Assembly: GCA_020161265.1 (NCBI GenBank)
Contig: JAIUOC010000012.1
Span: forward strand, 62,001-126,000
DNA length: 64,000 bases
Reading direction: 5' to 3'
Origin: Chloroflexota bacterium
GTDB lineage: Bacteria; Chloroflexota; Chloroflexia; Chloroflexales; Herpetosiphonaceae
A program made the position numbers and the translations under genes. Numbering within the stretch: position 1 is the first letter of the stretch; each line of letters starts with the position of its first letter. The notes beneath the pieces are model-generated. The model made no database searches and was not told the DNA's origin. It saw nothing but the letters and a program-made list of their open reading frames with translations. Below, piece after piece: positions 14,086 through 55,627 of this stretch.

Positions 14086-16032
14086 ATGCAACGTCGATCG
14101 AACTATTGGTTTTTGCTCATAAGCTTCGTTTTAGCTGCTTGTGGTCAACCAGATAGCTTGCTTTCAACAAACCCAACAGTAACAATAGCCGACCAAGCCA
14201 ACCCAACCAGCACGCCGATCAACGGTGGTCAGAGCAGCGATCTTGCCATAATCGAACAATTGCAACGGCCAGCCCAAAGCCAACCCTACGAGTTTGCGCC
14301 AAACCCAATGAGTGCTAGCATTAATGATCGGTTGTTGTTACTTATGCCGAAGGTTATGCTCAATCAGATTATGACGCTTGATCTCGATTCAAGCAGTAAT
14401 CCCAACGATTTACCAATTAAAGCAATTGACGATTATCTCACCGATACGCCAATCGATCAGCTGATTGATCATTATCAAACCAGCCTTGCCGCCACAAATT
14501 GGCTTGCCCAGCCGATTCAGCACATAAATCCCCAAGATACAACCTTGATATTTGAGCATGAGCAAACCCAGCTTTACATTTTTATCTTTACGCCGATGAA
14601 TACCGATCAATTGTTTGTTTCGATTAAATTGCTGCAAACGAATCATTCACGGCCAAACCTCGAACTCCCGTTGGTGAATACTTCAGATATCTTTACAGCT
14701 CACGATGTGCGCTTCCCATCAAACACCACAATCAATAACGGTTTGTTGAATGACCCAGCCAGGGGCGAATTGCTTAAACGCGATCTGTTGATGCCAATTC
14801 GGCAGCTGCAAAGTTTTTGGCCGGGCGAGATCACGCTCGAAGCGAGCCTCGTAGCTGAGACTTTCGGTTCTCAGCAGCTTACCTACGATTTAGCTAAAGC
14901 TATATCTGAACTTGGTGGCTGGCAAGCAAGCAATACATTATTGGGAACTGATAGTTATATCGGCCCTCCATTGTTACGTTTTGTTGATAATACAATTCAA
15001 GTACTGCTAATGAATCAACTCAGCGAGCATGAATATCTGGCCCAATCAAGCCCAAACGATTGGCTGTTGGGGATGCATTTGTTAACTCTGCGACCCTCCG
15101 AGCAGCCAAATTTCACGTTAGACCCCAGCTTTTTCAGCTCAATTGAAGCATTAGAAATCCCAACCCAACCAGATCAGCAGGATTATCAGCTTGGTACTGA
15201 TCGATTAGTTGATAGCTTGCTCTATGGTTGGCAACATAATCAGATCACCAAAACCAAGCTTCAGGCCTACATCAACACCAACTATCCACCAGAATCCACA
15301 TGTAGCCCAAGCACAGCCAACCCAACCGGCAACATTCGCTATAGTGTTTTCAGCAGCGACAGCAACCCAAGCCAAATATCAGCAATATATAAACAAACAT
15401 TAACTGAACCAAACGACTGGAATAATCTAGGAGACGAGACAACGTTTGCCTTTTATGGAGTCAGAACTGAGCAAGGCTATCATGGTGGCACGCTTAATCT
15501 GATTGAACGTAGTCGTTACAACCCTCAGTTAAGCGGTAGCATTGGGATTATCAGCGAATCAAGCGCAAATGGCGTAGCAACGATTAATTTTCGTGGGAAT
15601 CAATTCGATCTTAATAGCCCTGTATTTGAAGTTTTTGAGCCAATTACCCATAGTTTGCCATTACTACCGGATGCTGTTAAGTTCAACTCTGTTCCTCATG
15701 AACGTTTTAATCCCTATGTTTATGGTTGGCTTAATAATTTACGTTACCAACGCTCCAGTAACGATTGCAAGGAAATCACCTATATTGATGGCGTACAAGC
15801 CTTGGTCGTCGATTCAAGTGACTTAACGCTTGCACCCAATTTCTACGACCCAATTTTACTCAGCCAAGGCTGGCAGAAAATTGTGATGAGTGATCAGCAT
15901 CACCGCTACATCAAAACAGAGCAAGACGGCAAGATTATCAATACAATCAATATTCGCTGGCAACTTGGCAGCCGTGTCACAGGCGACATAATCCAAGTCG
16001 TGATGATCGATTCGAGCGTTACTCATCGCTAA
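14086..16032 (+). CDS. Repeat-bearing lipoprotein, paralogue 1
   Basis: 648 residues with the lipobox LAAC (Cys19) and a Ser/Thr/Pro-rich linker. I do not recognise the family. Four copies of a short unit of the type hydrophobic-x-Y-x(6-7)-G/N-W are visible (DQLIDHYQTSLAATNW, TYDLAKAISELGGW, ISAIYKQTLTEPNDW, FYDPILLSQGW), spaced roughly through the protein, which suggests four related domains. The next gene encodes a clear paralogue with the same lipobox position and the same end, IDSSVTHR. It is probably anchored on the outer surface. A hairpin terminator follows. Confidence 0.75.
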   Translation: MQRRSNYWFLLISFVLAACGQPDSLLSTNPTVTIADQANPTSTPINGGQSSDLAIIEQLQRPAQSQPYEFAPNPMSASINDRLLLLMPKVMLNQIMTLDLDSSSNPNDLPIKAIDDYLTDTPIDQLIDHYQTSLAATNWLAQPIQHINPQDTTLIFEHEQTQLYIFIFTPMNTDQLFVSIKLLQTNHSRPNLELPLVNTSDIFTAHDVRFPSNTTINNGLLNDPARGELLKRDLLMPIRQLQSFWPGEITLEASLVAETFGSQQLTYDLAKAISELGGWQASNTLLGTDSYIGPPLLRFVDNTIQVLLMNQLSEHEYLAQSSPNDWLLGMHLLTLRPSEQPNFTLDPSFFSSIEALEIPTQPDQQDYQLGTDRLVDSLLYGWQHNQITKTKLQAYINTNYPPESTCSPSTANPTGNIRYSVFSSDSNPSQISAIYKQTLTEPNDWNNLGDETTFAFYGVRTEQGYHGGTLNLIERSRYNPQLSGSIGIISESSANGVATINFRGNQFDLNSPVFEVFEPITHSLPLLPDAVKFNSVPHERFNPYVYGWLNNLRYQRSSNDCKEITYIDGVQALVVDSSDLTLAPNFYDPILLSQGWQKIVMSDQHHRYIKTEQDGKIINTINIRWQLGSRVTGDIIQVVMIDSSVTHR

Positions 16033-16202: not shown

Positions 16203-18194
16203 ATGCGCTGGCGATTTACGCTCAATATTTTGCTCACCAGCTTCGTTTTAGCCGCATGTGGTCAGCCCCAAACTGCCCAACCAACCACGATAACCACAAT
16301 AATCACACCTGAAAAGGCTCAAAGTCGCGCTCAAGCTACGACCCAACCAACCGTCGCTGGCACTGCTACTCCAATCATTCCAGGGCTTTCAGCAGACCAA
16401 GTTAATGGCTTTATCGCTATAGGTGAGCTCGAACGCCCACCGCTCAGCCGTGATTATGTTGCTAAGGAAAACCAAGATATCGATGGCGATATGGGCTATT
16501 CAAGCATGGCCATGATGATGACGTATATGCCAGATGTCCTAGTACAGGCGAGTGATCCCGATCCAGCTGACCCGTATGCGATGTCGATGTTGCCCATTGA
16601 TACATACCTAACTCAAAGTTCAGTTGAAGCGACGATTGCATTTTATCAAACTGGTTTTGCAGCCAAAGGCTGGCAAGCTCAGCCAGTTCAACAGCAATCG
16701 CCTGATTCTGCGGCTTTATTTTTTGAGCAGGGCCAACATGTTGTTTCAGTGCTGATGTTTACGCCCTCAAAGCGTACAGAGCTCTATGTCATGCTGCTGC
16801 TGACCCAAAAGCCTGCCGATGCGCCTGCGCTAAACCTACCCTTGCCAGCCAACCACGATATTTTCGCAGCCAACGCGATTCCCATCCCGCCAAGTGCAAC
16901 ACTCAATACCAGCCTTGGCAATGACCCATTAGCAAAATCGGATATTTACGAGCCACACTATAGCCTTGAAAGCTTTTGGACAGGTTCGGTAAAATTCGAG
17001 GGCTATCAAATTTTAGAGCTAAGCAGCAGCCAAGCAGAAACTTTTGATTTTTACGAAACCTTGTTGGTGCATGCAGGCTGGCAAAATAACTTACGAATTC
17101 TTGGCCAAAATGACCATGGCATTCTTGGCACTGGTCGGATATTGCTGCGCTTTGTCGATAACGATATTCAAGTGCTTACCCTTTATCAGATGATTCACAC
17201 CCTCAATCAACCAACTGATGACAAATGGCTTTTAGCCATGACCTTGCTCACGCTCAAGCCAGCCAAGCCTTCAAACTTTAGCATCGATCAGCAAGCTTTT
17301 GCTCCACTTGAACGATTCACTGTTTCAACCCCGCCCGAACAAGTGGAGTATCAAGCAGGTAATGATCCAATTCTCGATACGTTCATTCAAAGTTGGCAAG
17401 CTGAATTACAAGCAAAAGCTCAGATGCAAGCGAATTATCAGAACACCAGCCGAGCTCGAACGATCTGCAATAGCATGCCCAACACCAATTACACGAGTTT
17501 CTTTATTAGCCAAGCCAGTCCACGCCAACTAGCCGATTTTTATGACCAAAAACTAACCGAGCAGGGCTTGCCGTTATACCAACCGAGTAGTGATACCATC
17601 CGCAGCTACTATACCGATACTGGCAAAGGCAGGCATGGATTTTCACTGGTTATGCTCGATCGAAGTAGTTATAACCCACAGCAAAGCGGAACTTTGGCGA
17701 TTATTCAGGAAAGCACCTCGGAGCGGCGGATTATGTTTCGTGGCGAGGATCATTACGATAATCAACTTTTCGATTTTGTCACGCCATTGAGCAATACCCT
17801 ACCACTCATGCCAAACGCTACGGCTTATACCTTCAAAAATGATGTAGGACTCGATCGGCAAGTGCGGAATTGGTTAGGTGATCTGCAATATGAAACCTAT
17901 AGCAACGATTGTAGTGAGGTGACTTATCTTGATGGAGCCACAGCTTCGTTATTGGAACTCAAAAGCGACAATGAAATCAACCAAATCATTGAATTTTACG
18001 ACTCAATCTGGTTAAACCAAGGCTGGAACAAATCGACCCTAGCAGACCGCCACGACCAGTATACCAAGCAGGAACAAGGCGGTGCAGTGCTGCATACAAT
18101 TAACTTGCGCTGGGAAAGCGCATCTAGCACGATGATTCCCTTTGATAAAACTATCATCTTGATTAAAATCGATTCAAGCGTTACCCATCGCTAA
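16203..18194 (+). CDS. Repeat-bearing lipoprotein, paralogue 2
   Basis: 663 residues; GAGGAAGGA precedes the ATG. The lipobox LAAC places Cys19 exactly as in the preceding paralogue, and the whole proteins align end to end (for example RPP-LS/AQS near the start, DLQYETYSNDCSEVTYLDG against NLRYQRSSNDCKEITYIDG, and identical IDSSVTHR ends). The repeated unit is clearer here: TIAFYQTGFAAKGW, TFDFYETLLVHAGW, LADFYDQKLTEQG and IIEFYDSIWLNQGW. Family not recognised. Tandem duplication plus divergence suggests a surface role; no enzyme motif is visible. Confidence 0.75.
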   Translation: MRWRFTLNILLTSFVLAACGQPQTAQPTTITTIITPEKAQSRAQATTQPTVAGTATPIIPGLSADQVNGFIAIGELERPPLSRDYVAKENQDIDGDMGYSSMAMMMTYMPDVLVQASDPDPADPYAMSMLPIDTYLTQSSVEATIAFYQTGFAAKGWQAQPVQQQSPDSAALFFEQGQHVVSVLMFTPSKRTELYVMLLLTQKPADAPALNLPLPANHDIFAANAIPIPPSATLNTSLGNDPLAKSDIYEPHYSLESFWTGSVKFEGYQILELSSSQAETFDFYETLLVHAGWQNNLRILGQNDHGILGTGRILLRFVDNDIQVLTLYQMIHTLNQPTDDKWLLAMTLLTLKPAKPSNFSIDQQAFAPLERFTVSTPPEQVEYQAGNDPILDTFIQSWQAELQAKAQMQANYQNTSRARTICNSMPNTNYTSFFISQASPRQLADFYDQKLTEQGLPLYQPSSDTIRSYYTDTGKGRHGFSLVMLDRSSYNPQQSGTLAIIQESTSERRIMFRGEDHYDNQLFDFVTPLSNTLPLMPNATAYTFKNDVGLDRQVRNWLGDLQYETYSNDCSEVTYLDGATASLLELKSDNEINQIIEFYDSIWLNQGWNKSTLADRHDQYTKQEQGGAVLHTINLRWESASSTMIPFDKTIILIKIDSSVTHR

Positions 18195-20509: not shown

Positions 20510-21172
20510 ATGACGCATGCAGCAGCAACACTTGCGGCCATTGCTGAAGAAGTCGCCCAATGCACTGCCTGCCCACTTTGTCGTACCCGAACCAACGCAG
20601 TGCCAGGCGAAGGCCCAGCCAATGCCGAGATTTTGTTAATTGGGGAAGGGCCAGGCCAACGTGAAGATGCACTTGGTCGGCCTTTTGTCGGGCCTTCGGG
20701 CGATTTGTTGGAACAATGGTTGGCCGAAATTGGCCTAAACCGTGAACAAGTCTTTATCGCCAATGTGGTGAAATGTCGGCCACCTGGCAACCGCGACCCT
20801 GAGCCAAGCGAAATCGCCGCTTGTGCCCATTTTTTAGATCGCCAGATTGCGGCTTTGGCTCCCAAGTTGATAGCGACGCTTGGGCGACATTCGATGAACA
20901 AGTTTTTTCCTGGTGGCAAAATTACCAAAATTCATGGCATTCGTGGGGTTAAACGCCAAGGCCAAACGGTATTTCTGCCCTTATTTCACCCAGCCTATGT
21001 GCTGCGTAACATGAACGCCATGCCCGATGCCATCGCCGATATCAAGTTGATACCACGGCTGATTGCGCGGCTCAACCAGCGTTTGCAAGAAGAAACCAAC
21101 GAAACAACTGAGCCAAATTTGCCCGAAACCGACGAGCCAACAACGCCACCACAACAAATGTCAATGTTTTAA
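20510..21172 (+). CDS. Type-4 (iron-sulfur) uracil-DNA glycosylase
   Basis: 220 residues. Catalytic motif GEGPGQREDALGRPFVG and the late motif HPAYVLRN identify a family-4 uracil-DNA glycosylase. The 4Fe-4S ligands are Cys18, Cys21, Cys89 and Cys105 (last two 16 residues apart). It excises uracil from DNA produced by cytosine deamination. A flexible tail of about 30 residues, rich in Glu, Pro and Thr, ends in QQMSMF, which matches the bacterial sliding-clamp-binding consensus QL[SD]LF in form; this is the last thing in the protein and so is accessible. Clamp binding is inference. Confidence 0.92.
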   Translation: MTHAAATLAAIAEEVAQCTACPLCRTRTNAVPGEGPANAEILLIGEGPGQREDALGRPFVGPSGDLLEQWLAEIGLNREQVFIANVVKCRPPGNRDPEPSEIAACAHFLDRQIAALAPKLIATLGRHSMNKFFPGGKITKIHGIRGVKRQGQTVFLPLFHPAYVLRNMNAMPDAIADIKLIPRLIARLNQRLQEETNETTEPNLPETDEPTTPPQQMSMF

Positions 21173-23732: not shown

Positions 23733-26700
23733 TTAGTTCTTGCTGACCATTGGTAAGTAGATCTTACGGGTTGGATCAACATTCTCAGTCACGTTGATCG
23801 TCACTGGAATTTGAACATTTGGTTGGGCTGTGTCGTTGGTTTGGATACACAGGTTGACTGTGTGGAGACCAGCGGCCAAGCCATTGGTGTTGAATTCAAG
23901 TGCCACATTGGCTGAGCCATCGGCTGCAATCGTGCCACTATTTGGCACTGAGCGAACCCATGGAGCAGCATCAGCAACACATGAAGCGCCACCACTGAGG
24001 TCAAGTGAAATATCATCAAGGAAGAAGTTGCTATTACCGCCAGCCTGAACAACTGATTCAACCGTCAGGGTATGGTTTGTTCCAGCGGCTAGCGCCGATG
24101 CGTTGATCGGTACTTCGACCAAGGTGTAGGTTGGGAAGCCAGTCCGTTCTGGGTTGGTTACTCGATAGACTTCATTGCCATCGATCAAAACGCGCATAAA
24201 GTCGTTTGGACGATCGGCAACTGCTGTAATAAACATCCAGAACGAGAGTGTTCCGCTGCTACCGGTTGGGGCAACAAAGCTTTGCTGCATTGTAGCAGTT
24301 TCGGTTGGCATCGTGTTGTCGATCCCACCGAACCATGCAAACCAGGTTCCGGTATGTGGAACATCCGAGGTTGAGTTTGGATCACAGGCAGTTGTACAGA
24401 ACACAACCCCAAAATTGGTTGAGCTTTGGCTCCAGAATGGGTTTGAGTTGCTATTGCCTGCGGCAACAGTTGCCTCAAAACTACCATCTTGGACCACTTC
24501 AGCGGCAGGTGCTGTTTGCTTGCTACCCGCAGAGCGTAAGTGGGCTGGGACTGGTTTGCGGGTAGCTACTTCGCCACTTGGGGCTTGGCGGCCACTGGCA
24601 GCCAGTTCAGCAATTGTCCAAGTCAAGGGTGCTGCACCATTGTTATCCAAGGTCAGGGTTTGAGTTGTGATGGTGTTGATTCCAACAGTCTCGCTGATTG
24701 GCGTGGTATCAACATCCAAACATGGTGCATTCAAGCGCAGTTGGCCATTTTGGGTAACCGCACCAGCTGCCGTAACCGTCACGTTGTAGGTTTGGGTAAC
24801 ATAGCCAGCCTTGGCAACCGTAATCGTATAGCTACCAGCAGCTAAGCTATAGCTGTATGATCCAGAGCCGCTGGTGGTCAAGACCGTTGCTGGAGTAGTG
24901 TTGATCGTCACAGTTGCGCCACTTAATGGAGCAGGTGAGACATCACATGCAGCTAAGCCTTGAATTGTCCCACTAATTGAACCGAAGTTCGGTGGAGCAG
25001 TAACCGTCAAGGTTACAGGGATAGTTACGCCTGGTAGTGGTGCATTGTGGGTCAAGACCAAGTTACCAGTGTAGACCCCAGCTTGGGTCAGGCCATTGGT
25101 CGAGAAGACCACATTGACCACTTGATTAGTCACTGGCGTACCGGGTAAGCCAGTAATCGTATTTGGCGTTTCAGTCAACCATGAAATAGCATCACAGCTA
25201 GCAGAAACACACAAGGCCATTTCGCTGCGCAGGCGAGCTTGGTTGAAGCTGAATTGAGCAGCTTGAGCCGTGCTTGCACCACGAACACCAACGGTTGCAC
25301 TCAAACCATTGTTGAATGATGGATTGCCATAATCGAGATCTTTGTATTGGTAAATCATGCCACCTTGTTCGTTGATCACAACTTGGAAGGTTGCATTACC
25401 AATATTGTCGTAGTGTGGGCGATTTTCCCATTGAACGATCAATGAGCGATTTGGCGCAGTACCGACAACTTTCCAGTAGGTTGCCCCTGATTCATCATCA
25501 ACATCATCCCAGAATGGTGAGATAACATTGTTGGTTGCGCCAGTCAGCAACGATTCGTTGGTTGCAGCGACATCACCAGTGGTTGCACCGACCAGGACAA
25601 CCCCATTGTTAGCAACCCGCAAGTTACGGCTGCTGGTGTTGAAGATGGTTACGGTAAATGGGCTGGTAATGTTGGCTTCTGCATCGTCAGTCAAGTTCAG
25701 GTTCGTACCATCGTTGGCTTCGATCCAGTTATATGGAATTTCCGAGATGGTATAGCCAGCTTGGCTGATGGCGCTGCGGCTTTGCTCGCTGATTGTTGCA
25801 TTGAGCGGAGCAGCACCCTTGCTGGTTACAACCAACGTTTGAGTTACAGGGGCAGCACCCAATTGGAGTGATGCACTCAATGAAGTTGGACCAGCGGTCA
25901 AACAAGCTTTGTTCAAGCGCAAGGTGAAGTTTTGGGTAACTTCAGCACCATCAGCAACCGTGACGCTTTGTGATTGACCAAGATGATCAACAGCACTAGC
26001 AGCAACGGTATAGGTACCACCTTGAGGCACGAAGAAGGCATATTCACCATTGGCATTGGTAGTAACTGTTGCAGTCATCCCGCTGGTATAGGTGATCAAG
26101 ATCTTAGCGCCAGCAGCTGGAGCAGGAATCGTATCACAAACACCTGATGAAACAACCGTACCACCAATCCGTGCTTGGGTAGCAGCGGGGTTGATGATCA
26201 TTGTCACTGGAATGTTGAATGTTTGGCTAATCACTGCTGAGTAACCAAGGTTCAGGCTGCCAGTGTAGGTACCAGGTTGGGTAATCACACCAGGATTCCA
26301 GCCGATTGCCACGTCGGTGCTTGCACCGCCAGCAATCACTCCAGTCGCAGGGGCTTCCTGCAACCATGGAATACTATCGCCGCTACCAATAATTGCTTGC
26401 AGCACACGCTCAAGCACAGTGCGTTCGATCGCTTCACCACTGGCACTGGTGCCTAGGCTAATGAAGTCGGTTGCAAGGTAGACTGCTTTGTAACCATTAC
26501 GTTGGATGAAGCTACCGCCAACTGCATTATTGACATAGCGGAAGATCACCGTCGATGAACTACCTGGGGTATAGAAGTCAGGGAATGAGTCTGCTGAAGC
26601 AGCATTCACACCAGCCATGAAATCGAAGCCAGTCAAGGCCCGATTCGCAGCACCTGGATCATCACCACCATAGGTTGAGTCAAGCATGGTTCGGTAGAAC

Positions 26701-29700
26701 GTACCTGAGTTGGTGAAGAAACCAAGGTCGTTATCAGCAATAAACAGCTTACCACCTGCGTTGAGGTATGCGGTAAGTTTGGTTTCGCTGGCATTATTGG
26801 CGGTTGCGTTAGTTGTGCCAAGGAAGATTACTGCATCAAAAGTTTGCAAGTTGGCCAAGCTACGGGCTTCGAATGCAACGTTATCGATTGATTCAAAGGT
26901 ATAGCCAAGCGCGGTCAAAGCCGTCGTTGCAGCAGTGGCCGAGGTTGCCGAGTTGCGTTGAACCACCAACACGTTGCCACCAGCGCGGTTGACCGCTGGA
27001 GTAAAGCCAGTCGCACCATTTTCGCGAATGGTGTAGGTGAATGGCTGAGTACCGTTGTTGGTTAATTCTAAACCAACAGTATCGGTGAATGGAGCATCAC
27101 CAAAGGTAAAGGTACGGGTCAAGCTGGCTGGGGTATAACCAAAGACTGGAGTAATTTCCAGATCTTGGGTTGTTGTAACCCCATTGCTAATCGTCAAGCT
27201 CGCGCTATCAGCAGCAAAACCAATCTTCGAAGCGGTCAGGGTATGGCTGCCTGGCTCCAAGCGAATGGCAAAGCTACCGTCAGCTTTGGTCTTGACGTAT
27301 TGGTTGCTGATGGCGACCGTTGCATCGCCAACTGGTGCGCCGTTCGCGCTGTTGGTCACAATCCCTGCGACCGCGCCAGCAGCCAAGGTGAAGTCTTGGG
27401 TCGCCGTGCCAGCATCAACCACCGTTACTGATTGTGATTGCGTGACATATTTTGGCGCACTGACCGTTACCGTGGTTGAACCAACATTGGCCACCGGAAT
27501 GGTGTATTGGCCAGCGGCATTGGTTGTGGTGCTATAGCCAGTGACCGACACATTTGCCCCAACAACTGGGTTGCTTGGGCTAAAGGCATCACGCACCGTC
27601 CCTGTAATTGAGCCGTAGCTCAAGACAAAGTTTTGGGTCGTGGTGACATTTTCAGTAATTGATACGCTTGGGACGACTTGGAATGCACCTTGCAAGCTAG
27701 CGGTTACAGCATAGGTACCAACTGGTACGATCATGCTGTAGTTACCACTGGCGTTGGTCAAAGCACTTGAGCCGCCGCTGGTGCGAACCATTGCGCCAAC
27801 AACTGGGTTGCTGTTGCTTTGGGTTACTTGGCCAGTCAAGGTACCGGTTGGGCCAACTGAGCCGTTGTAAACATACAAGGCAAAGTCTTGGTCGGTGGTG
27901 TCAGCATTGCCTGGAATGGCATCGCCAGCAATGTTGCGGGCAATGACTTTGACTTGGATTGCACCGCTTGCGCCTGCTGGCAAGTAAACACCTTCGATGT
28001 TGTTCTTGTTATCAGCAGTGCCGCCAGTGGTTGAAAGTGCGCCGTTGAAGACGTTACCTTTGTAGGTTTGGCCACCAACTGTCACTTCGAGATCAAGGTC
28101 GTTGACATAGCTGTTACCAGTAGTGCTACCAACTGCGTCAGTCCATGCCAAGGTAATTCGCATTGGTTTGGCTGAATCGGCAACTTGGCCCACTTGGGTA
28201 AATTCTTCACCGGTTGCGCCGAAGGTGCGGCTTTGGTCTACCACAATCCGTGGGGTGCTATCCAAGGCCGGAGCCAAGTTCATATCGCCCCAACCTTGAT
28301 TGTTTGATGGCAAGGTGCCACCCGTACCGCTGCCGTTCATGTAGCGGGTTGAAGCCAACATATAGGCTTTCAACATTGCTGGGCTTGGAGCAACCCCGCC
28401 ACCAAAGCTGGTGCGATATTTGGTGTAGAGCAATGAGGCTGCCCCTGCCACCGCTGGGGTTGAGTGGCTTGTACCGCTCGACCACGTGTAGAGTGTTTGG
28501 CCCGTTGGATAGTAGGCACTACCAGCGATTGCACAAACACTGTCGCCACTGAAGTCGGCTTGTTGTGAAGCTGGACCCATCACGTGCGTTCCAGGAGCCA
28601 TAATGTCGGGTTTTACCCGTGCATCATCGGTTGGACCACGGCTTGAGAACGTAGCAATGTCATCAGCGTTATCGGCATTTGGCTCATTACAACCATCCGA
28701 TACGCCTTCGTCGCGCACGTTTTCGGTTGCGCCTACGGTGATAACGTTCTTGGCAGTACCAGGTGAGCCAACCGTGTTCGTACCTGAACCAGCGTTACCA
28801 GCGGCAACGATGTGCGCCATTTCTTGGTTGCCAGCAGTGGTGCTGCTTGCATCACGAGTTCCTTGGTCGTAGGCTTGTGATGAAGCGGTATACGCGCCAC
28901 CACTGTTTGAACCCCAACTGTTGGATGAGATAGCAGCGCCATGGGTATAAGCCATAGCAATGATCCCAATGTAGTTGCTACCGCCACCACAATTGGTCAA
29001 ATCAAAAGTACCACCATTGTTGAAAATCTTGGTGCTAGCCATCCGCCCGAATGGCGAAATACCTAGGCCAACGCGATAGCCGCCAGCAATCCCTGAGCTA
29101 GCGCCGTCAACGTGGGGCGAGCCAGTCAGGTTATTGTAGCTACCAACAATCCCTACATTGAGGTGACCGTGACCATCTTGGTTTGACCCAGAAGCATCAG
29201 CTGTACAGTTACCAACCGCGGCAATCCGCGAAGTACCAGGCCGAACCCCATTGACATAGAAGTCGGGGTGAATGGGCGAGGTCGTGCCGTTATCCAAACC
29301 ATCATCGATAACATCGACAATTGGATATTGGTTGGGGTCGGTTGGCACGCCTTGGCTTTGCAACCAGCTTAAGTAGCCTGGGCCGTTCGGCACCACTTTG
29401 CCACCAGCAGTGGTTACGTTACCAGCAATAATTTGGCCTTGGCGCTCATCCATTTTTTGAGGAGCTTCCCACGCTTCAATGTTGTAGACATTGGCGCGGC
29501 GAGCAATTGGAGCCAAGGCGGCTTCGCTGACTTGCACCGAAATCGTGGTGAAGTTGAGCACTTGCCATGGGGTTGCGTAAACTTGGGCGCTGGCATCAAG
29601 CACTTCGCGCACATCACGCTCAACCGTCGCACTGTTATAGAACTGAATCGTAATATCGACCAGCCCCTTCGCATCGGGGTTGCTGGCTTTTTGGCGGAAC

Positions 29701-30281
29701 TCAGGAGCTAGGCGATATTCGGGGTGATAGGCACCAGCCCATTGAATCGCCCCATTGCTCTTGCTGAGTGCATCAAGTTTGGCCACGGTTTGGCCATTTG
29801 CCCAAACGAGGTAAGCATTGTTGGGCATGTAAATCACACGTTCCGCGCCAGCTTTGGTCAGTTCATCCAACCAAGCATCCTTGAGTGGCCCCGCAAATTG
29901 CACCAACCACAATTGTTGGTCGGCAGTTGGGCTTTGGCTCAGGCTTGGTTGTACTGTGGGAACGTTCTTTAAAGGATTGAAGCTGATTCCGCGTAAGCCA
30001 ATCGTATCCAGATCGGCGGCTTGTGCGCCAGCTAATTGGTTGAGGCTATTGGCGTTGCTCGTGGCAACTTGCCAGACTGAAAAAGAGCCATAATCGGCAA
30101 TCAACGTACCATTCGTGCGAACAAATTTGTTGGCTGGGCTGTTTGGTTCAACGAGGAACTTGGTCGTCGCAGTCGGAGCACGCATTACTTCGGCACGGGC
30201 TGGTTGCGCCGCACCTTGAAGTCCCAATGAGAGCGTCATTGCAATGAGGGCTGCTTGCCGAATGAAGGGGAATTTGGCCAT
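23733..30281 (-). CDS. Giant secreted subtilisin-like protease (S8) with repeat domains, paralogue 1
   Basis: 2,182 residues from the ATG at 30281 (GGAGG upstream). A signal peptide (about 1-32, ending QPARA) precedes a pro-region, then the S8 domain with Asp near 325 (PIVDVIDDGLDNG), His near 370 (GHGHLNVGI) and Ser near 603 (SSGTSHSTPAVAG). Three carboxypeptidase-regulatory-like beta domains follow (near 815-1050), a Rossmann-like segment near 1120-1230 (FDAVIFLG, GGKLFIADND), two more regulatory-like domains, a MAM-like module near 1930-2090 and a final beta domain. The end, IYLPMVSKN, is shared with other secreted proteins here. It should degrade protein outside the cell, fitting predatory or scavenging nutrition. 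The paralogue lies immediately upstream. Confidence 0.9.
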   Translation of the reverse strand: MAKFPFIRQAALIAMTLSLGLQGAAQPARAEVMRAPTATTKFLVEPNSPANKFVRTNGTLIADYGSFSVWQVATSNANSLNQLAGAQAADLDTIGLRGISFNPLKNVPTVQPSLSQSPTADQQLWLVQFAGPLKDAWLDELTKAGAERVIYMPNNAYLVWANGQTVAKLDALSKSNGAIQWAGAYHPEYRLAPEFRQKASNPDAKGLVDITIQFYNSATVERDVREVLDASAQVYATPWQVLNFTTISVQVSEAALAPIARRANVYNIEAWEAPQKMDERQGQIIAGNVTTAGGKVVPNGPGYLSWLQSQGVPTDPNQYPIVDVIDDGLDNGTTSPIHPDFYVNGVRPGTSRIAAVGNCTADASGSNQDGHGHLNVGIVGSYNNLTGSPHVDGASSGIAGGYRVGLGISPFGRMASTKIFNNGGTFDLTNCGGGSNYIGIIAMAYTHGAAISSNSWGSNSGGAYTASSQAYDQGTRDASSTTAGNQEMAHIVAAGNAGSGTNTVGSPGTAKNVITVGATENVRDEGVSDGCNEPNADNADDIATFSSRGPTDDARVKPDIMAPGTHVMGPASQQADFSGDSVCAIAGSAYYPTGQTLYTWSSGTSHSTPAVAGAASLLYTKYRTSFGGGVAPSPAMLKAYMLASTRYMNGSGTGGTLPSNNQGWGDMNLAPALDSTPRIVVDQSRTFGATGEEFTQVGQVADSAKPMRITLAWTDAVGSTTGNSYVNDLDLEVTVGGQTYKGNVFNGALSTTGGTADNKNNIEGVYLPAGASGAIQVKVIARNIAGDAIPGNADTTDQDFALYVYNGSVGPTGTLTGQVTQSNSNPVVGAMVRTSGGSSALTNASGNYSMIVPVGTYAVTASLQGAFQVVPSVSITENVTTTQNFVLSYGSITGTVRDAFSPSNPVVGANVSVTGYSTTTNAAGQYTIPVANVGSTTVTVSAPKYVTQSQSVTVVDAGTATQDFTLAAGAVAGIVTNSANGAPVGDATVAISNQYVKTKADGSFAIRLEPGSHTLTASKIGFAADSASLTISNGVTTTQDLEITPVFGYTPASLTRTFTFGDAPFTDTVGLELTNNGTQPFTYTIRENGATGFTPAVNRAGGNVLVVQRNSATSATAATTALTALGYTFESIDNVAFEARSLANLQTFDAVIFLGTTNATANNASETKLTAYLNAGGKLFIADNDLGFFTNSGTFYRTMLDSTYGGDDPGAANRALTGFDFMAGVNAASADSFPDFYTPGSSSTVIFRYVNNAVGGSFIQRNGYKAVYLATDFISLGTSASGEAIERTVLERVLQAIIGSGDSIPWLQEAPATGVIAGGASTDVAIGWNPGVITQPGTYTGSLNLGYSAVISQTFNIPVTMIINPAATQARIGGTVVSSGVCDTIPAPAAGAKILITYTSGMTATVTTNANGEYAFFVPQGGTYTVAASAVDHLGQSQSVTVADGAEVTQNFTLRLNKACLTAGPTSLSASLQLGAAPVTQTLVVTSKGAAPLNATISEQSRSAISQAGYTISEIPYNWIEANDGTNLNLTDDAEANITSPFTVTIFNTSSRNLRVANNGVVLVGATTGDVAATNESLLTGATNNVISPFWDDVDDESGATYWKVVGTAPNRSLIVQWENRPHYDNIGNATFQVVINEQGGMIYQYKDLDYGNPSFNNGLSATVGVRGASTAQAAQFSFNQARLRSEMALCVSASCDAISWLTETPNTITGLPGTPVTNQVVNVVFSTNGLTQAGVYTGNLVLTHNAPLPGVTIPVTLTVTAPPNFGSISGTIQGLAACDVSPAPLSGATVTINTTPATVLTTSGSGSYSYSLAAGSYTITVAKAGYVTQTYNVTVTAAGAVTQNGQLRLNAPCLDVDTTPISETVGINTITTQTLTLDNNGAAPLTWTIAELAASGRQAPSGEVATRKPVPAHLRSAGSKQTAPAAEVVQDGSFEATVAAGNSNSNPFWSQSSTNFGVVFCTTACDPNSTSDVPHTGTWFAWFGGIDNTMPTETATMQQSFVAPTGSSGTLSFWMFITAVADRPNDFMRVLIDGNEVYRVTNPERTGFPTYTLVEVPINASALAAGTNHTLTVESVVQAGGNSNFFLDDISLDLSGGASCVADAAPWVRSVPNSGTIAADGSANVALEFNTNGLAAGLHTVNLCIQTNDTAQPNVQIPVTINVTENVDPTRKIYLPMVSKN

Positions 30282-30532
30282 GCCATCCTCCACACACAAG
30301 TGTGTAATACCAGTTAATTCCAAGAGGTACAATCGTGAGCATGTGGCTAAAATATCAAAAAAATAATATTAAACTGTATCCCTCCTTTCAATAAAAGGGG
30401 ATTGTCGCGGGTTGGTGAGAGTAATAGCTTAAAAAAGCCCGTTCACTGGCTATGGGCGTATTCTAACGCTTCAGTTTGAGGCGCTACGGGGCAACAATCT
30501 CTTATATCCATTATCCCGTTGGGGATAGGACT
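30282..30532 (-). promoter_or_regulatory. Long 5' leader of subtilase 1 with internal terminator-like hairpin
   Basis: Between the candidate promoter (30533-30561) and the ATG lie about 245 transcribed bases with no ORF of note. On the minus strand GCCC-13 bases-GGGC followed by TTTTTT (30431-30454) resembles an attenuator. ACACAC-TT-GTGTGT (about 30291-30304) ends directly at the GGAGG site and could hide it. No known riboswitch was recognised. Confidence 0.4.
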
Positions 30533-30679: not shown

Positions 30680-33600
30680 TTAGTTGCGCATAATGATAGG
30701 TAGATACAGCGGATAGTTCGGGATCGCCGCTGGCTCAACCGTCAAACTAACTGGAATCCGCACATTTTGGCGATTGGGGTTGTTGGTGATCAAGCATAAA
30801 CTGGCAGTATGCGTGCCAACTGCCAAGCCCGTTGGATCAAGCGCAACATCAATTGTTTGCTGGCTATCAGCAGCAATATTGCCACTGTTCGGCACAACGT
30901 GCAGCCAATCCACTGCATCACCAGCACAGCTTTGGACTAAATCAAGGCTCAGATCATCAATAAAGAAGTTGGTGTTGCCGCCTTGCACAATTTGGGCTTC
31001 AAAGCGAATGCTATGCAGCTCGCGCCCACCAAGCACTTGCTCATTAATCGGCACAGTTACTAGGGTATAGCTGCTGTAATTGGCCCGATCGGCATTGGTC
31101 ACTCGAAATACTTCATTGTTGTTGATCAGGACTCGCATGTAATCATCAGGTCGATCCATCGGCGCAGTAACCGATAACCAGAAACTCAAGGTACCTGCGC
31201 TAAAGCTGGTTTGGCTGAAGTCTTGGCTGAAATAGCTGGTTTCAGTGCCAAAGTTTGACCCAATCCCTCCCATCCAAATAAACCAATCACCAGTATGCGG
31301 CATAACATCATCACACTCCACAGTGCAGAGCAAGCTGGCAAAGTTGCGCGAATCTTGGCTCCAATAGGGGTTGGTCGCCACATTATCGCTAATCGTAGTG
31401 GCCTCGAAGCCGCCATCAAGCAAACGTTCGCTAGCTGGAACCAGTTGCGGTTGAGCTTCTGTTTGGCTGGTCGTTACTCGTTGGGCATTGGCTGCCAAGG
31501 CTTTTTGTTGTGGCAAGCGTTCTTCAATTTGCCAATCGAGCACACCTGCGCCGAGATTGCTCAAGCTAAAGCTGGCGGTGATCGGCGTGTTCAGTTCGGT
31601 GGTGGCGGTAATCGCTGGCGTGCTGCTGGTATCCAAACATGGCGCTTTCAAGCGTAGCAGCGAATCTTGCTGATAGGTCTGGCCTGCCTCAACCGTTAAT
31701 GGATAGCTGACACTGGTAAATGCCCCCGGGTAGCCTTCAACCAAGACGTTGTAGCTGCCTGCCGGAATTGGGCGGCTGTAGTTGCCAATGCCATTGGTAT
31801 ATAAAACTGTTGGCGGCTCAGTGTCAATCGTAATTTTGACGTTGGCCAAAGGCATTGGGTTGACATCGCAAACCAAAGTTGTTTCAACCAAACCATTCAG
31901 CACGCCATAACCTTCGGGCAAGGTTACATTGACGGTTACAGGAACAACTACTGGCGGCTGTGGCGTGGTGTGGTTCAGCACCAAATTGGTGGTGTAAACG
32001 CCAACTGTATCAAAGTTGCTGGTATCAATCGCGAGATCAACCATTCGGAAACTTGATGGTGTACCAGTCAAATTGCTAAGTTTATTCGGGCTAACGCTCA
32101 GCCAATTCAAACTATCGCAAGTTTGTGAGATACACAAGGCCATGCGATCACGTAGGACTGGCCGATCAACGCTATATTGGGCAATCTCGTTGCGTGTGCC
32201 ACGCACCCCAATCGTAGCACTGGCCCCAAAATCTAAGAATGGTTCGTTGAAATCCACATCCTTGTATTGGAACAAAATATCGCCTTGTTCTGAGAGCACC
32301 GCTTGGAAAGTGGTGTTATCCCAGTTGTTGTAGTGTGGGCGATGTTCCCACTGCACTACCACCGCGCGATTGGGCGCTTCGCCGACGACTTTCCAATACA
32401 CGCCGCCTGTTTCATCATCCAAATCGTCCCAGTAAGGTGCAATCACATAGTTATGGATGGCATTCTCTAGGCTGGGGTTGAAGATTTCGATCAAGCCAGT
32501 CAAATTGTTGAGGATCATTACGCCGTTATTCGAGATGCGCAAATCGGTGGTGCTCACGCCATACAAATTAATCGGAAATGGCGTGACGATATTGACCAAA
32601 TCGTAAGCACCCATATTCAAATTTGTGCCGTCGCTGGCTTCGATCCAGTTGTAATCAACTTCGGTCAGTGTTAGATCGCCGCTGTTGACGGTTTTGGCAC
32701 GAGTTTCGCTAATTGCCACATCGAGCGCTTGTGCTCCGGTGCTGATCACAAACAGCTGCTCGGTTTTGCTTTCGCCAAACACGATGCTAGTATTGATCGC
32801 ATTTGGCCCAACAATCAGACACCCTTTATCCAGCCGCAATTGCATATTATTGACACTTGGCTCGCCATCGCCAACAGTAATACTTTGGCTGCTGGCAACG
32901 TGGTCGGTTGCGCTAAATTCAAGGCTATACTCGCCGCCTGCTGGAACAAACACCACATACTCGCCTGCGCTATTGGTGCGCACGCTGGTAACCAAGCCTT
33001 GTTGATCATTGATCGTCACCAAGGCATTGGCTAATGGCGCTGGGGTATTGCTACAAACGCCCGAGCCAGTCACAACGCCGCTTAGTCGGGCTTGGCTGGT
33101 GTTGGGCGTGATCGTAATGCTGACTGGAATTTCGGCAGTTTGGGTGTAGACCGCAGTTTGGGCCAAAACCACCGTGCCAGTGTAGGTTCCAGGTTGAGTT
33201 AATCGATCAGGGAACCAGCTAACTGCCACCGAACTGTTTTGTCCTGCCGCCACCTCGCCGCGCAATGGCGCAAGCTCCACCCAATTAATTTGATCGGTGG
33301 TTCCTAGCAATTGGGCAAGACTGACTTCAACAATATCGCGTTCGATGCGCTCACCAAAGGCGTTTGTGCCGAAATTGTGAAAATCAACCGCTAAATAAAT
33401 TGCTTTGTAGCCGTTGCGCTCAATGTACGAGCCACCAACCGAGCCATCACTGTAGCGGAAGATTGCGCGTGATGAGCTGCCAGGCGTGAAATAATCAGGG
33501 AAGAAATCAACCACCATAGGATTGATTCCGGCCATGAAATCCAGCCCAATCAAGTTGTAATTGGCAGTTTCAGGGTCATCGCCGCCAAAACTCGCATCAA

Positions 33601-36600
33601 GATATTGCTGATAAAAACTGCCGCTGTTGGTGAAGTAGCCCAAATCGTTATCAGCAATCAACAGCCGCCCGCCAGCATCGAGATATTCGGCCAATTTGGC
33701 TTCGATCGGATTATTGGCGGCATTATCAGTCATTCCAAGATAAATTAGCGCGTCGTAGGCCTGAATATCGGCCAAACTCATTGTGGCAAATTCGCCAAAT
33801 TCAATCTGATCGTATGCATAGCCCAGCTGGCTCAGCGGAATGGTGGCTGCATTGGCATCATCGCTACCAGTGCGCAGCACCACCAAAATCCGTTGTTGGT
33901 TGCGGGCAGGCGTAAAGCCAGCATCGCTCAATTCGCGCAGGCTATAACTAATTGGCTGAGTCGTATTGTTGGTTAATTCCAAGTTCAGGCTATCGCTAAT
34001 CGGAGCCGCCCCAAACTCAAAGCTTCGGCTCAGGCCGCTCGGTGTATAGCTGAGCAATGGAATCAAACTCAGGTTTAATGTGCTGGTCAGACCATTACTG
34101 AGGCTCAAATTCTGCGTTTCGGCGATTAGTCCAACTTTGCTGGCTCCAACGCTATAGCTGCCCAAGGGCAAGCGCAAGCTGTAGTAACCCGCCGCATTGG
34201 TTTTGACCGTGTAACTGCCAAGCGTGACCACAGCATCCTTGACTCCTAGGCCGCTGCTGGCATCGCTAATTATCCCTTCAACCGCACCCGCCGCCAAATT
34301 GAAATTGCCTATGGTGGTGGTATTGGCAACTACACTCAGATTTTGCTGCTGCGGCGTGTAACGATCGGCCTGAACATTCAGCGCCACCGTGCCCGGCGCG
34401 GCCACCGGAATTTGATAGGCACCAGTGCTATCGGTAAAGGTGCTGAAGCCAGCGGTCGAAACCAAGGCTCCAACAATTGGCAAACTTGGGGTAAAGCTAT
34501 CGCGCACCACCCCGCTAATGCTGCCATATACCAAGGTAAAGTTTTGGCTAATTTGGGCATTTTGGCCAACAGTAATGGTTGGCACACTTTGAAATACCCC
34601 ATTTATGCTAGCCGTCAGGGCATAGGTGCCAACCGGCAATACCAAACGATAGTTGCCATCGGCATCGCTCACGGTACTCAAATTAGTGTTGGTGGCAATT
34701 CGCACGTTGGCAACAGGTGCATTGCTGGCGTTGCTCACCCGCCCCGTAACTGTGCCAATCGCGCCCTCGCTAGCATTGTAGACATACAGGGCAAAATCTT
34801 GGTCGGTGCTATCAGCATTACCTGGAATAGCATCGCCAGCAATATTGCGGGCAATTACCCGCACCTGAATCGAGCCACTTGCCCCAGCTGGCAGGTAAAC
34901 CGATTCAACATTGTTTTTGGCATCGGCCACGCCGCCAGTTGTTGAGAGCGCTCCATTAAACACATTGCCTTTATAAACTTGGCCGCCAACCGTCACTTCG
35001 AGATCAAGGTCATTGACGAAGGCATCGCCCGTAGTACCGCCCGCCGCATCAGTCCATGTGAGGGCGACCCGCAAAGCTTTGTTGCTATCGGCAATTTGGC
35101 CTACTTGGCTGAAACTCTCGCCGCTAGCCCCAAACACATGGCTTTGATCAACCACAATTCTGGGAGTGCTATCGAGCGCGGTTTTCAGGTAGACATCGCC
35201 CCAACCTTGCTGATTGGTTGGCAAGTTGCCGCCAGTATTCACACCATCTAAATAACGGCTCGAAGCCAACAAATAGGCCTTGAGCATGGCCGGGCTTGGA
35301 GTTGCCCCATTGCCAAAGCTTGTACGATATTTGGTATACAGCAACGAAGCTGCGCCTGCCACCGCCGGAGTTGAGTGGCTAGTACCGCTTGACCATGTGT
35401 AAAGGGTTTGATTATCGGGATAATATGGATTAGTTAGACCACCACAAACGCCATCGCCCCAAAAGCCCGCTTCTTGGGGGGCTGGGCCAATTACGTGGGT
35501 GCCAGGAGCCATAATATCGGGCTTGATTCGGCTATCATCGGTTGGGCCTTTGCTCGAAAAAATCGCCAAATCATCAGCATTATCGGCCTGTGAAATCTCA
35601 CAGCCATTGCCATCCAAAACGCCTTCATCGCGCACATTTTCGGTTGCGCCGACTGAAATCACGTTTTTGGCGGTGCTCGGCGCGCTAACCGTATTTGCCC
35701 CAAATTCACCCACATTGCCTGCGGCAAAAATATGCAACATCGCTTGGTTACCCGCATCGTCGCCGCTCGCGTCGCGGGTGAGTTGGTCGTAAAGCTGCGA
35801 ATAAATGTTATACGCACCCATTGAGGCTGGTTGGCCCCAGCTATTCGAGGTAATTGCCGCTTGATGCTCATAACCAGCAGTCACAATATCGGCGTAGCTA
35901 TCGCCACCATCACAATTGCTAATGCTGAATGCGCCACTATTGCGAAAGATTTTGGTGCTGGCCATACGGGTATAGGGCGCAATCCCAAGCCCAATATTAT
36001 AGCCACCAGCAATCCCAGAGCTAGCTTCATCGATATAGGGAAACCCTGTGAGATTGTTGTAGCCGCCGATAATTCCGGCGTTGATTTGGCCGTGACCCGC
36101 CAAACTATTGCCGCGCGGGTCAAGAGTACAGTTGGATGTGGCGGTGATGCGCGAAGTTCCAGGTCGCACGCCATTTAGATAAAAATCAGGATGCAATGGA
36201 TTGATCGTGCCATCATCGAAGCCATCATCAACCACATCAACAATTGGATACTCGGCAGGGTTGTTGGGCAAGCCTTGGCTTTGCAACCAGCTTAAATAGC
36301 CAGGCCCACTTGGCACAGTTTTGCCATTCAGCGTCGTCACATTGCCTGCGATAATCTGGCCTTGACGTTCATCAAACAGCTCTGGCTCGCTCCAAGGCTC
36401 AATATTGTAGATATTCGCTCGTTGCGCCAACGCTGCCAATTCAGTTTCAGGCAGTTGGACCGAAAGTGTCGTGAAATTGAGCACCTGCCATGGCCGTGCA
36501 TGCAGCTTGCTACTCGCCGCAATGACTGCATCAACCGAGGCTTGCACATCGCCAGCATTGTAGATTTGCACGCTGACATCAACCAATTCAGTTCGTTTGG

Positions 36601-37195
36601 GACTACTTGCCTTAGTGCGTAGTTCTGGAGCCAAACGATATTCAGGCTGATAGACACCCATCCATTGAATAGCATGGCTGGTTTGTTGTAATTGATTGAG
36701 CTTATTGAGGCTCGCGCCATCAGCCCAAACCAAATAACTATTGCTCGGCACATAAATCACCAATTCGGCTCCAGCCTTGGTGAGTTGCTCCAGCCAAGCA
36801 TCTTTAATGGGGCCGATAAATTGAACCAACCACAATTGATGCTCAGCGGTTGGGCTTTGGGTTAATCTGAGACTTGGTTGAACTTTCAATGGATTGAAAC
36901 GAATCCCACGAAAATTAAGCGTATCCAGATCGCTGGCCGTCGCACCAGCCAATTGCTTAACCTGGTTCAATTGATTATCGGCAATCTGCCACAAGCCAAA
37001 TGCCCCATAATCGACCAGCAATTTGCCATGAGTTTGGGCGAAACGGCTCGCTGAGCTACCCGTATCGATCAACAGTTTGCTGAATGTTTGCGGGTTTGCC
37101 GAAGTTTGGGCGGCGCTTGGTTGCACAACTGGCACAGCCAAACCCACCAGCATCAACGCCAAAACCAGTTGGCGCACCAAAGAAAATCGAGCCAT
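30680..37195 (-). CDS. Giant secreted subtilisin-like protease (S8) with repeat domains, paralogue 2
   Basis: 2,171 residues from the ATG at 37195 (GTGGAGGA upstream); an upstream in-frame start at 37300 would give two hydrophobic segments and is less likely. Architecture matches paralogue 1 throughout: signal peptide, pro-region, S8 domain with Asp near 322 (VDVVDDGFDDG), His near 367 (GHGQINAGI) and Ser near 603 (GTSHSTPAVAG), regulatory-like beta repeats, the Rossmann-like insert (YDALIYLGMTD, GGRLLIADNDLGYF), a MAM-like module and a C-terminal beta domain. It ends YLPIIMRN. Codon usage matches the neighbours, so the duplication looks native. It has its own 3' terminator and is transcribed separately from paralogue 1. 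Confidence 0.9.
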   Translation of the reverse strand: MARFSLVRQLVLALMLVGLAVPVVQPSAAQTSANPQTFSKLLIDTGSSASRFAQTHGKLLVDYGAFGLWQIADNQLNQVKQLAGATASDLDTLNFRGIRFNPLKVQPSLRLTQSPTAEHQLWLVQFIGPIKDAWLEQLTKAGAELVIYVPSNSYLVWADGASLNKLNQLQQTSHAIQWMGVYQPEYRLAPELRTKASSPKRTELVDVSVQIYNAGDVQASVDAVIAASSKLHARPWQVLNFTTLSVQLPETELAALAQRANIYNIEPWSEPELFDERQGQIIAGNVTTLNGKTVPSGPGYLSWLQSQGLPNNPAEYPIVDVVDDGFDDGTINPLHPDFYLNGVRPGTSRITATSNCTLDPRGNSLAGHGQINAGIIGGYNNLTGFPYIDEASSGIAGGYNIGLGIAPYTRMASTKIFRNSGAFSISNCDGGDSYADIVTAGYEHQAAITSNSWGQPASMGAYNIYSQLYDQLTRDASGDDAGNQAMLHIFAAGNVGEFGANTVSAPSTAKNVISVGATENVRDEGVLDGNGCEISQADNADDLAIFSSKGPTDDSRIKPDIMAPGTHVIGPAPQEAGFWGDGVCGGLTNPYYPDNQTLYTWSSGTSHSTPAVAGAASLLYTKYRTSFGNGATPSPAMLKAYLLASSRYLDGVNTGGNLPTNQQGWGDVYLKTALDSTPRIVVDQSHVFGASGESFSQVGQIADSNKALRVALTWTDAAGGTTGDAFVNDLDLEVTVGGQVYKGNVFNGALSTTGGVADAKNNVESVYLPAGASGSIQVRVIARNIAGDAIPGNADSTDQDFALYVYNASEGAIGTVTGRVSNASNAPVANVRIATNTNLSTVSDADGNYRLVLPVGTYALTASINGVFQSVPTITVGQNAQISQNFTLVYGSISGVVRDSFTPSLPIVGALVSTAGFSTFTDSTGAYQIPVAAPGTVALNVQADRYTPQQQNLSVVANTTTIGNFNLAAGAVEGIISDASSGLGVKDAVVTLGSYTVKTNAAGYYSLRLPLGSYSVGASKVGLIAETQNLSLSNGLTSTLNLSLIPLLSYTPSGLSRSFEFGAAPISDSLNLELTNNTTQPISYSLRELSDAGFTPARNQQRILVVLRTGSDDANAATIPLSQLGYAYDQIEFGEFATMSLADIQAYDALIYLGMTDNAANNPIEAKLAEYLDAGGRLLIADNDLGYFTNSGSFYQQYLDASFGGDDPETANYNLIGLDFMAGINPMVVDFFPDYFTPGSSSRAIFRYSDGSVGGSYIERNGYKAIYLAVDFHNFGTNAFGERIERDIVEVSLAQLLGTTDQINWVELAPLRGEVAAGQNSSVAVSWFPDRLTQPGTYTGTVVLAQTAVYTQTAEIPVSITITPNTSQARLSGVVTGSGVCSNTPAPLANALVTINDQQGLVTSVRTNSAGEYVVFVPAGGEYSLEFSATDHVASSQSITVGDGEPSVNNMQLRLDKGCLIVGPNAINTSIVFGESKTEQLFVISTGAQALDVAISETRAKTVNSGDLTLTEVDYNWIEASDGTNLNMGAYDLVNIVTPFPINLYGVSTTDLRISNNGVMILNNLTGLIEIFNPSLENAIHNYVIAPYWDDLDDETGGVYWKVVGEAPNRAVVVQWEHRPHYNNWDNTTFQAVLSEQGDILFQYKDVDFNEPFLDFGASATIGVRGTRNEIAQYSVDRPVLRDRMALCISQTCDSLNWLSVSPNKLSNLTGTPSSFRMVDLAIDTSNFDTVGVYTTNLVLNHTTPQPPVVVPVTVNVTLPEGYGVLNGLVETTLVCDVNPMPLANVKITIDTEPPTVLYTNGIGNYSRPIPAGSYNVLVEGYPGAFTSVSYPLTVEAGQTYQQDSLLRLKAPCLDTSSTPAITATTELNTPITASFSLSNLGAGVLDWQIEERLPQQKALAANAQRVTTSQTEAQPQLVPASERLLDGGFEATTISDNVATNPYWSQDSRNFASLLCTVECDDVMPHTGDWFIWMGGIGSNFGTETSYFSQDFSQTSFSAGTLSFWLSVTAPMDRPDDYMRVLINNNEVFRVTNADRANYSSYTLVTVPINEQVLGGRELHSIRFEAQIVQGGNTNFFIDDLSLDLVQSCAGDAVDWLHVVPNSGNIAADSQQTIDVALDPTGLAVGTHTASLCLITNNPNRQNVRIPVSLTVEPAAIPNYPLYLPIIMRN

Positions 37196-37300
37196 GCTAT
37201 TTCCTCCACACAGCGAGATCACGGCAACAAGTGCCAACCACAGCCAATTCAATCGACCAGACCAGCGTGATTGAACCGACTGCCCCCTTGACTTGAGCAC

Positions 37301-40480: not shown

Positions 40481-40539
40481 CCCAAGAAGCGAGATAGCTT
40501 GGCAATTCGGAAACGTTGCCAACAATTCAAGGAGCCTGC

Positions 40540-41355
40540 ATGACCAACTATTACGAAATGTTCAAGCAGCACGAAGAATCGATCGTCGAAACCATCATTA
40601 CTACCTTGCAAACCCAAATTCCTACCTACGGCAAAATATCACGCGATGATGTTCGCAAACGGGTCATTGCTGGGCTTGATCCATATGCCCGCGACTTAGA
40701 TACAGAGCATCCCAAGGCTTTTCCTGATTATTGGCGCGAAACGAGCTACTTACGGGCGCAACAAGGTATTCCGATTGGCGATTTCTTGCAGGTTTTGCTC
40801 CTTTCCACCGATATTATGATTCAGGGTTTGCGCCAAGCCTACCCCGATAGCACCGCTGATCAAATTAATGTGATTGAAAAAGGCCATCAAATTACGACCG
40901 CCGCGATTGCTGCTGTCTACGAAGGCTTTCAACAACACAAAGATGAAATTATCTCATCGCAAACCTATGCACTGGCCGAAGTTTCATCACCAATCGTGCC
41001 AGTCTATGAAGGCGTTTTGGTCTTGCCCTTAATTGGCTCAATCGATTCGATGCGAGCAGGCCAAATTATGGAATCGCTGCTTGAATCAATCAATACCTAC
41101 AGCGCTGATGTGGTGATTTTGGATATTACGGGTGTTCCAGTGATCGACACTGGCGTTGCCAATTATTTGTTGCAATCGGCTCGCGCCGCACGTTTGCTCG
41201 GTTCAACCGTGGTATTGGTAGGGATTGGCGCTGAAATTGCCCAAACGATTGTTCAATTGGGCATCGATCTTACGGGCATCGTCACCCGCGCCAATTTACA
41301 ATCGGGCATCGAATACGCCCTAGATTTACAAGGCTTGGCGATTCGCCCCCGTTAA
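40540..41355 (+). CDS. RsbR-type STAS-domain protein, paralogue 1 (stressosome)
   Basis: 271 residues from the ATG at 40540 (CAAGGAGCC upstream). An all-helical N-terminal sensor domain (about 1-140, RsbRD-N-like) is followed by a STAS domain (about 150-271) with the RsbR-like strand-turn VILDITGVPVIDTGVANYLLQ. Thr204 lies where RsbT phosphorylates RsbR in Bacillus, and Ser170 replaces the other phosphorylated threonine. Such proteins form the stressosome, sensing stress and releasing a kinase. No RsbT, RsbS or sigma gene is nearby. The C-terminal domain is nearly identical to that of the next gene. Confidence 0.85.
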   Translation: MTNYYEMFKQHEESIVETIITTLQTQIPTYGKISRDDVRKRVIAGLDPYARDLDTEHPKAFPDYWRETSYLRAQQGIPIGDFLQVLLLSTDIMIQGLRQAYPDSTADQINVIEKGHQITTAAIAAVYEGFQQHKDEIISSQTYALAEVSSPIVPVYEGVLVLPLIGSIDSMRAGQIMESLLESINTYSADVVILDITGVPVIDTGVANYLLQSARAARLLGSTVVLVGIGAEIAQTIVQLGIDLTGIVTRANLQSGIEYALDLQGLAIRPR

Positions 41356-55574: not shown

Positions 55575-55609
55575 TCAACTGTGTATAATGTACACAGTTG
55601 ATTTTTTTT
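55575..55609 (+). terminator. Terminator of the tRNA operon
   Basis: TCAACTGTGTA (55575-55585) and TACACAGTTGA (55591-55601) form a perfect 11-pair stem around TAATG, then eight T. The same bases contain TATAAT (55584-55589), so it could double as the -10 box of the next gene. Confidence 0.9.
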
Positions 55610-55627
55610 GTTCACGAGGTTGTTATT

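Follow-up and report, generated by a model that had tools for sequence, protein, structure and literature searches.

The window analysed here (the whole stretch of DNA under study, 64,000 nucleotides) comes from the genome of a Herpetosiphon relative, and its ORF at 20510-21172 encodes a protein that is, by predicted activity, a family-4 uracil-DNA glycosylase (UDG). The closest named orthologue is that of H. aurantiacus DSM 785, with 99.5% identity over 220 residues. In a profile search, the 220-aa product scored 178.7 bits against TIGR00758, for which the cut-off is 125.3 bits, and it matched PF03167 as well. Its core carries Cys18, Cys21, Cys89 and Cys105, which presumably serve as the ligands of an Fe-S cluster. 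Motif A reads GEGPG (residues 45-49) and motif B reads HPAYVLR (residues 160-166), both of which conform to the family-4 signature given in PMC10359453, namely GE[A/G]PG and HP..(L/V)(L/V)R. When the structural model was compared with solved structures, 4zbx, 1vk2 and 1ui0 were among the best matches (39-50% identity, rmsd 1.3-1.9 A), and the closest solved folds, 4zbx and 1ui0 among them, are those of family-4 enzymes. A UdgX identity can be ruled out, since motif A contains Gly where UdgX contains Gln (GEQPG) and the TIGR03914 score of 138.8 bits falls below the cut-off of 189.95. The same-strand neighbours of the gene are a transaldolase-like gene, genes for a CDP-alcohol phosphatidyltransferase, PlsY and a protein of 169 residues that matched no family, and a gene for RNase J. 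The parts of the UDG gene are listed in Table 1.

Table 1. Parts of the family-4 UDG gene, in window coordinates.
Feature	Position	Strand	Basis
Family-4 uracil-DNA glycosylase gene	20510..21172	+	ATG start, 220 aa; TIGR00758, PF03167, fold
Catalytic core, residues 1-199	20510..21106	+	Core alignment; AlphaFold block pLDDT 93-99
Pro/Glu/Thr-rich linker, residues 200-215	21107..21154	+	Coil, pLDDT about 75; length and sequence variable in orthologues
QMSMF, predicted terminal beta-clamp-binding motif, residues 216-220	21155..21169	+	Kept in orthologues
TAA stop codon, directly 3' of the motif	21170..21172	+	ORF reading

The glycosylase terminates in ...EPNLPETDEPTTPPQQMSMF-stop, its final residues being TTPPQQMSMF, and the tail amounts to the final 20-25 residues, consisting of a linker and then a pentapeptide. 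The span of 21155-21172 that the earlier note had assigned to this ending is exact. In the AlphaFold model, residues 1-199, up to the end of the last helix, are confidently predicted and residues 200-220 form a coil with a block pLDDT of 75-77, which leaves QMSMF in an accessible terminal coil beyond the fold. A flexible tail is supported by this model, though the pLDDT is about 75 and not below 50. QMSMF fits the clamp-binding pentapeptide Qphix[L/M][F/L], as this motif is defined in passages of PMC11139829. The likeness to QL[SD]LF and the placement at the extreme end of a flexible tail, both of which the earlier note had proposed, are thereby borne out by the sequence and by the coil in the model. 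A PIP box of the type that binds PCNA (the octapeptide QxxLxxFF) is ruled out, as the UDG stops after QMSMF.

Since the pentapeptide is short and lies in a fast-evolving, disordered tail, it is conceivable that its likeness to a clamp motif arose by chance. To weigh this, Chloroflexota orthologues were scored for a strict motif, defined as Q[LMIV]x[LM][FL] within the final 12 residues, and the null was obtained by shuffling the last 45 residues of each tail. The Chloroflexota set, which was spread over families and is not a random sample, held 139 loci with 137 distinct tails and combined the best match per genome from 57 of 60 same-order genomes (own included), the 22 top matches in the phylum and 60 picked loci, chosen mostly as one genome per family not yet represented. 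The strict motif was present in 113 of the 137 distinct tails (own included), compared with 0.26 expected from shuffles, and a looser form in 125 of them, compared with 3.26 expected. Aligned in this way, the C-termini of Chloroflexota family-4 UDGs do not vary freely over their last five residues, a point on which the earlier note had made its reading depend. Among the same 137 tails, with no conditioning on the motif, Gln occupied position -5 in 118, Leu or Met position -4 in 114 and position -2 in 113, and Phe position -1 in 107; column entropy was 2.8-3.3 bits at -12 to -6 versus 1.0-2.5 bits at -5 to -1. The most variable position within the motif is -3, and three Herpetosiphon genomes carry Thr at motif position 2 (QTSMF), their tails being scored as misses in all strict tallies. 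Variability at -3, which clamps tolerate, and at motif position 2 agrees with passages of PMC11139829. QLSLF was the commonest variant among the first 112 loci (42 cases), with QLRLF, QLTLF and QMTLF at 9 each, and of the 55 Chloroflexota families sampled, 53 yielded one or more sequences bearing the motif in its strict or looser form. The linkers preceding the motif differ in both sequence and length among orthologues, and the motif is thus conserved beyond its surroundings, in keeping with a clamp-binding motif. A scan of the whole genome for Q[LIMF]x[LIMF]F followed by a stop gave 54 DNA matches, of which 32 had an in-frame terminal stop, and among these 32 only two frames of more than 113 codons were closed by the pattern, those of the UDG and of a DUF72 protein; from the composition of the window, chance alone would make about 0.15 proteins per 5000 end in Q[LM]x[LM]F. 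Because the counts of the orthologue survey exceed those from shuffled tails by a factor of hundreds, with no conservation in the neighbouring linker, a chance origin of QMSMF is untenable.

The composition of the linker brings up another alternative, in which the tail docks a partner other than the clamp, for example by imitating, with its acidic character and final Phe, the C-terminal tail of SSB, which ends in Asp-Asp-x-Pro-Phe. In the 111 Chloroflexota sequences with an exactly terminal motif, Pro (19%), Ala (18%), Glu (16%) and Asp (7%) make up most of the 20 preceding residues, and a linker rich in Glu, Asp and Pro on a protein that ends in Phe would suit such a mimic. Against it, the fixed Gln followed by L/M-x-L/M-F is the clamp consensus described in parts of PMC11139829 and is unlike the ending of SSB. 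Furthermore, Glu or Gln predominates at position -6 and Ser or Thr at position -3 in the Chloroflexota tails, which likewise argues against an SSB mimic, and we regard this alternative as improbable. Still less probable is a role of the tail in protein degradation or stability, as a C-terminal signal that plays no part in recruitment. Proteases can recognise short hydrophobic C-termini, which would make such a signal conceivable; the almost invariant Gln, with its defined spacing from the C-terminus, and the one to three residues that certain orthologues tolerate after the motif (QLDLFT, QLNLFES and QMTLFQEH) both speak against a strict terminal degron. A clamp-binding motif, with binding being predicted, is by far the best reading of the UDG tail.

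The motif was absent from the UDG-superfamily paralogues that were compared. Neither of the two further PF03167 proteins of the same genome carries it: a family-1-like Ung ends in IDWQIPNL, and the other protein, a more remote homologue, ends in ALLEE. In relatives, 13 loci of second UDG copies were fetched, one of which (L330) gave no match, and the 12 that were readable all lacked the motif. A single DnaN was found in the genome, with 27% identity to E. coli DnaN overall, and QNSLF is present in the DnaE of the same genome, in a setting that we take to resemble that of the internal motif QADMF of E. coli DnaE. When the peptide pocket of this DnaN was compared with that of E. coli over the 18 pocket residues listed in passages of PMC11139829, 12 were identical, 4 conservatively replaced (T172I, H175Y, V247F and V360L) and 2 changed non-conservatively (V344N and R152N, the latter beside an alignment gap). 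The two Asn replacements speak against the clamp-binding reading; according to the same source, Arg152 of the E. coli clamp contacts a terminal carboxylate in Pol IV. The kept pocket and the QNSLF of DnaE together argue that the clamp of this organism very probably reads QxSLF/QxSMF peptides.

When examining the distribution of the motif, it is evident that it extends to a second phylum. In Actinomycetota, 52 of 70 tails (30 best matches to the family model and 40 picked from the listing) carried the strict motif, mostly as QLGLF or QMGLF, compared with 0.06 expected from shuffles, and 14 of the 70 lacked even the looser pattern. A set of 80 named loci, from which L071 and L084 were dropped because their frames run off the stretch, gave the strict motif in 24 of 40 Chloroflexota, 10 of 13 Actinomycetota and none of 25 loci from Bacillota, Planctomycetota, Bacteroidota and further phyla. 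The strict motif was likewise absent from all 28 Pseudomonadota family-4 UDG tails counted from 30 listed loci, where L277 (same genome as the named L106; motif-free) was left uncounted and L384 was excluded for the same reason as L071 and L084. The Pseudomonadota enzymes (L361-L389) have no C-terminal tail, and their open frames extend N-terminally by about 35-180 residues; a relocated strict motif was sought in these extensions at 29 loci and found in none. Absences also occur close to the present genome, as the UDG tail is missing in 9 of 9 genomes of a genus of the same order (g6; L307, L308 and L311-L317), and among the named Dehalococcoidia the strict motif is present in 2 of 7 and missing in 5 of 7. 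The motif is evidently dispensable, given its absence from g6, from most of the named Dehalococcoidia in its strict form and from 14 of 70 Actinomycetota even in its looser form. Three named Chloroflexota (L051, L062 and L064) have UDG tails of QEPLL, ERLL or QERLL, which look like a degenerate motif at the edge of a motif-losing clade. A tree built from the cores only, with tails left out (156 rows; motif in 66 of 76 Chloroflexota and 35 of 45 Actinomycetota rows, with labels counting the looser motif), required only 12 changes of motif state; it came from a fast search on cores clustered at 72%, with no bootstrap, in which gain and loss are indistinguishable. This pattern would suit an ancient trait that was lost repeatedly as well as a trait gained few times.

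The second protein recovered by the genome scan, a DUF72 (YecE-like, PF01904) TIM-barrel protein encoded outside the window (contig C8, 405269-406117; L151, L156), ends in PPAPIQQLSMF. Its close Chloroflexota relatives (n = 35, own included; L157-L185 and L460-L464) carried the strict motif in 24 cases, with 0.08 expected from shuffles, and the looser form in 34, with 0.84 expected. More distant Chloroflexota DUF72 proteins are mostly without it, and in a negative comparison the motif was present in 0 of 30 Actinomycetota DUF72 proteins. In genus g6, the four DUF72 proteins seen (L182-L185) keep looser endings such as QASLF, QTSLF and QGSLF, though the UDG tails are absent there. Structures of DUF72 proteins exist without an assigned function (1vpq, 1vpy and 1ztv). 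Passages in the literature describe the member Tm1631 as a predicted endonuclease-IV-like DNA-repair enzyme (PMC3828134) and the family as a near relative of UV-damage endonuclease that is enriched in the vicinity of polB2 (PMC11791011). A clamp tail on DUF72 lends independent support to a role of this family in DNA repair, and the two tails together suggest that in this lineage the clamp serves as a docking site for more than one lesion-processing enzyme. It is possible, at somewhat less than even odds, that part of the class Chloroflexia possesses a clamp-docked lesion-processing set, in which the UDG would be joined by DUF72 as a clamp-recruited repair nuclease acting at the abasic site or at another lesion. 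If so, a widespread family of unknown function would gain one, with the tail as a concrete functional lead.

Based upon these features, we infer that QMSMF is a clamp-binding motif that docks the UDG on DnaN, with the enzyme patrolling freshly replicated DNA, and we put the probability of this reading at roughly 0.87. Presumably, QMSMF would enter the hydrophobic pocket of DnaN, with Gln occupying subsite II and Met-Phe subsite I, and the variable Pro/Glu-rich linker would allow the glycosylase core to reach DNA near the ring. The tethered enzyme could then patrol new DNA at and behind the fork, perhaps from clamps left on the lagging strand, and remove uracil there, whether misincorporated or derived from deamination. 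Repair at the replication fork, as suggested in the earlier note, would be a reasonable interpretation; clamps persist behind the fork too. One variant of the best explanation, which is compatible with the motif reading and which we consider a possible though less probable course, is that the UDG binds the clamp and acts away from the active fork, for instance by handing over abasic sites to clamp-bound polymerase and ligase in ordinary base excision repair, or during damage-induced synthesis only. The mycobacterial clamp stimulates the glycosylase Nei2 and also engages XthA during base excision repair, according to passages of PMC9690074, whereas human UNG2 requires PCNA binding for its localisation to forks, according to parts of PMC13292882. 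The sequence data fit fork-coupled repair and base-excision hand-over on the clamp alike. Under the clamp-docking reading, uracil repair is probably tied to replication across most of the two large phyla.

Both a clamp client motif and a clamp-tethered UDG are of known kinds, and it is the bacterial bearer that appears to be new. Human UNG2 is a family-1 enzyme that uses another clamp and a PIP-type motif, which is located at its N-terminus. Like the UDG described here, it is a uracil glycosylase, and clamp recruitment to forks has been described for it (PMC13292882, in part). Closer in enzyme family are the family-4 UDGs of Pyrobaculum aerophilum and Sulfolobus solfataricus, which interact with PCNA (passages of PMC4894655, citing Yang 2002 and Dionne & Bell 2005). 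The same enzyme family is placed on a replicative sliding clamp in this archaeal case, although the clamp is PCNA and the PIP consensus is unlike the bacterial pentapeptide (parts of PMC3950489). Mycobacterial Nei2 and XthA are, like the present enzyme, bacterial base-excision enzymes and use the beta clamp (PMC9690074, in part), but they belong to enzyme families other than UDG. Polymerases share the motif Qphix[L/M][F/L], several of them at a C-terminal tail (PMC11139829, in part), and differ in that the bearers are not glycosylases; in the main text of this 2024 review of bacterial clamps, the words "glycosylase", "uracil" and "UDG" do not occur. NucS/EndoMS of Archaea and Actinobacteria is likewise a repair enzyme whose clamp motif is C-terminal, but it is a mismatch endonuclease and the bacterial consensus given for it is looser (passages of PMC11109965). 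A search of open-access full text, with subscription papers outside its scope, found no report of a clamp motif on a bacterial UDG. If the clamp-docking reading holds, a tail on an "archaeal-type" glycosylase would link the excision of uracil to the replication clamp in two large bacterial phyla, in parallel to the PCNA-coupled uracil repair of archaea and humans. The five residues would also offer a direct experimental way to ask whether base excision repair in bacteria is coupled to replication.

Several other features of the window were observed. Three long proteins, at 23733-30332 (-), 30680-37300 (-) and 55598-57385 (+), exhibit a similar C-terminal signature, which is possibly a sorting or anchoring signal. 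The adjoining proteins at 14086-16032 and 16203-18194 (+; 648 and 663 residues) look like a tandem duplication, as they share the ending IDSSVTHR. Another adjoining pair, at 40516-41355 and 41465-42280 (+; 279 and 271 residues), has the common ending QGLAIRPR and is likely to be a tandem duplication as well.
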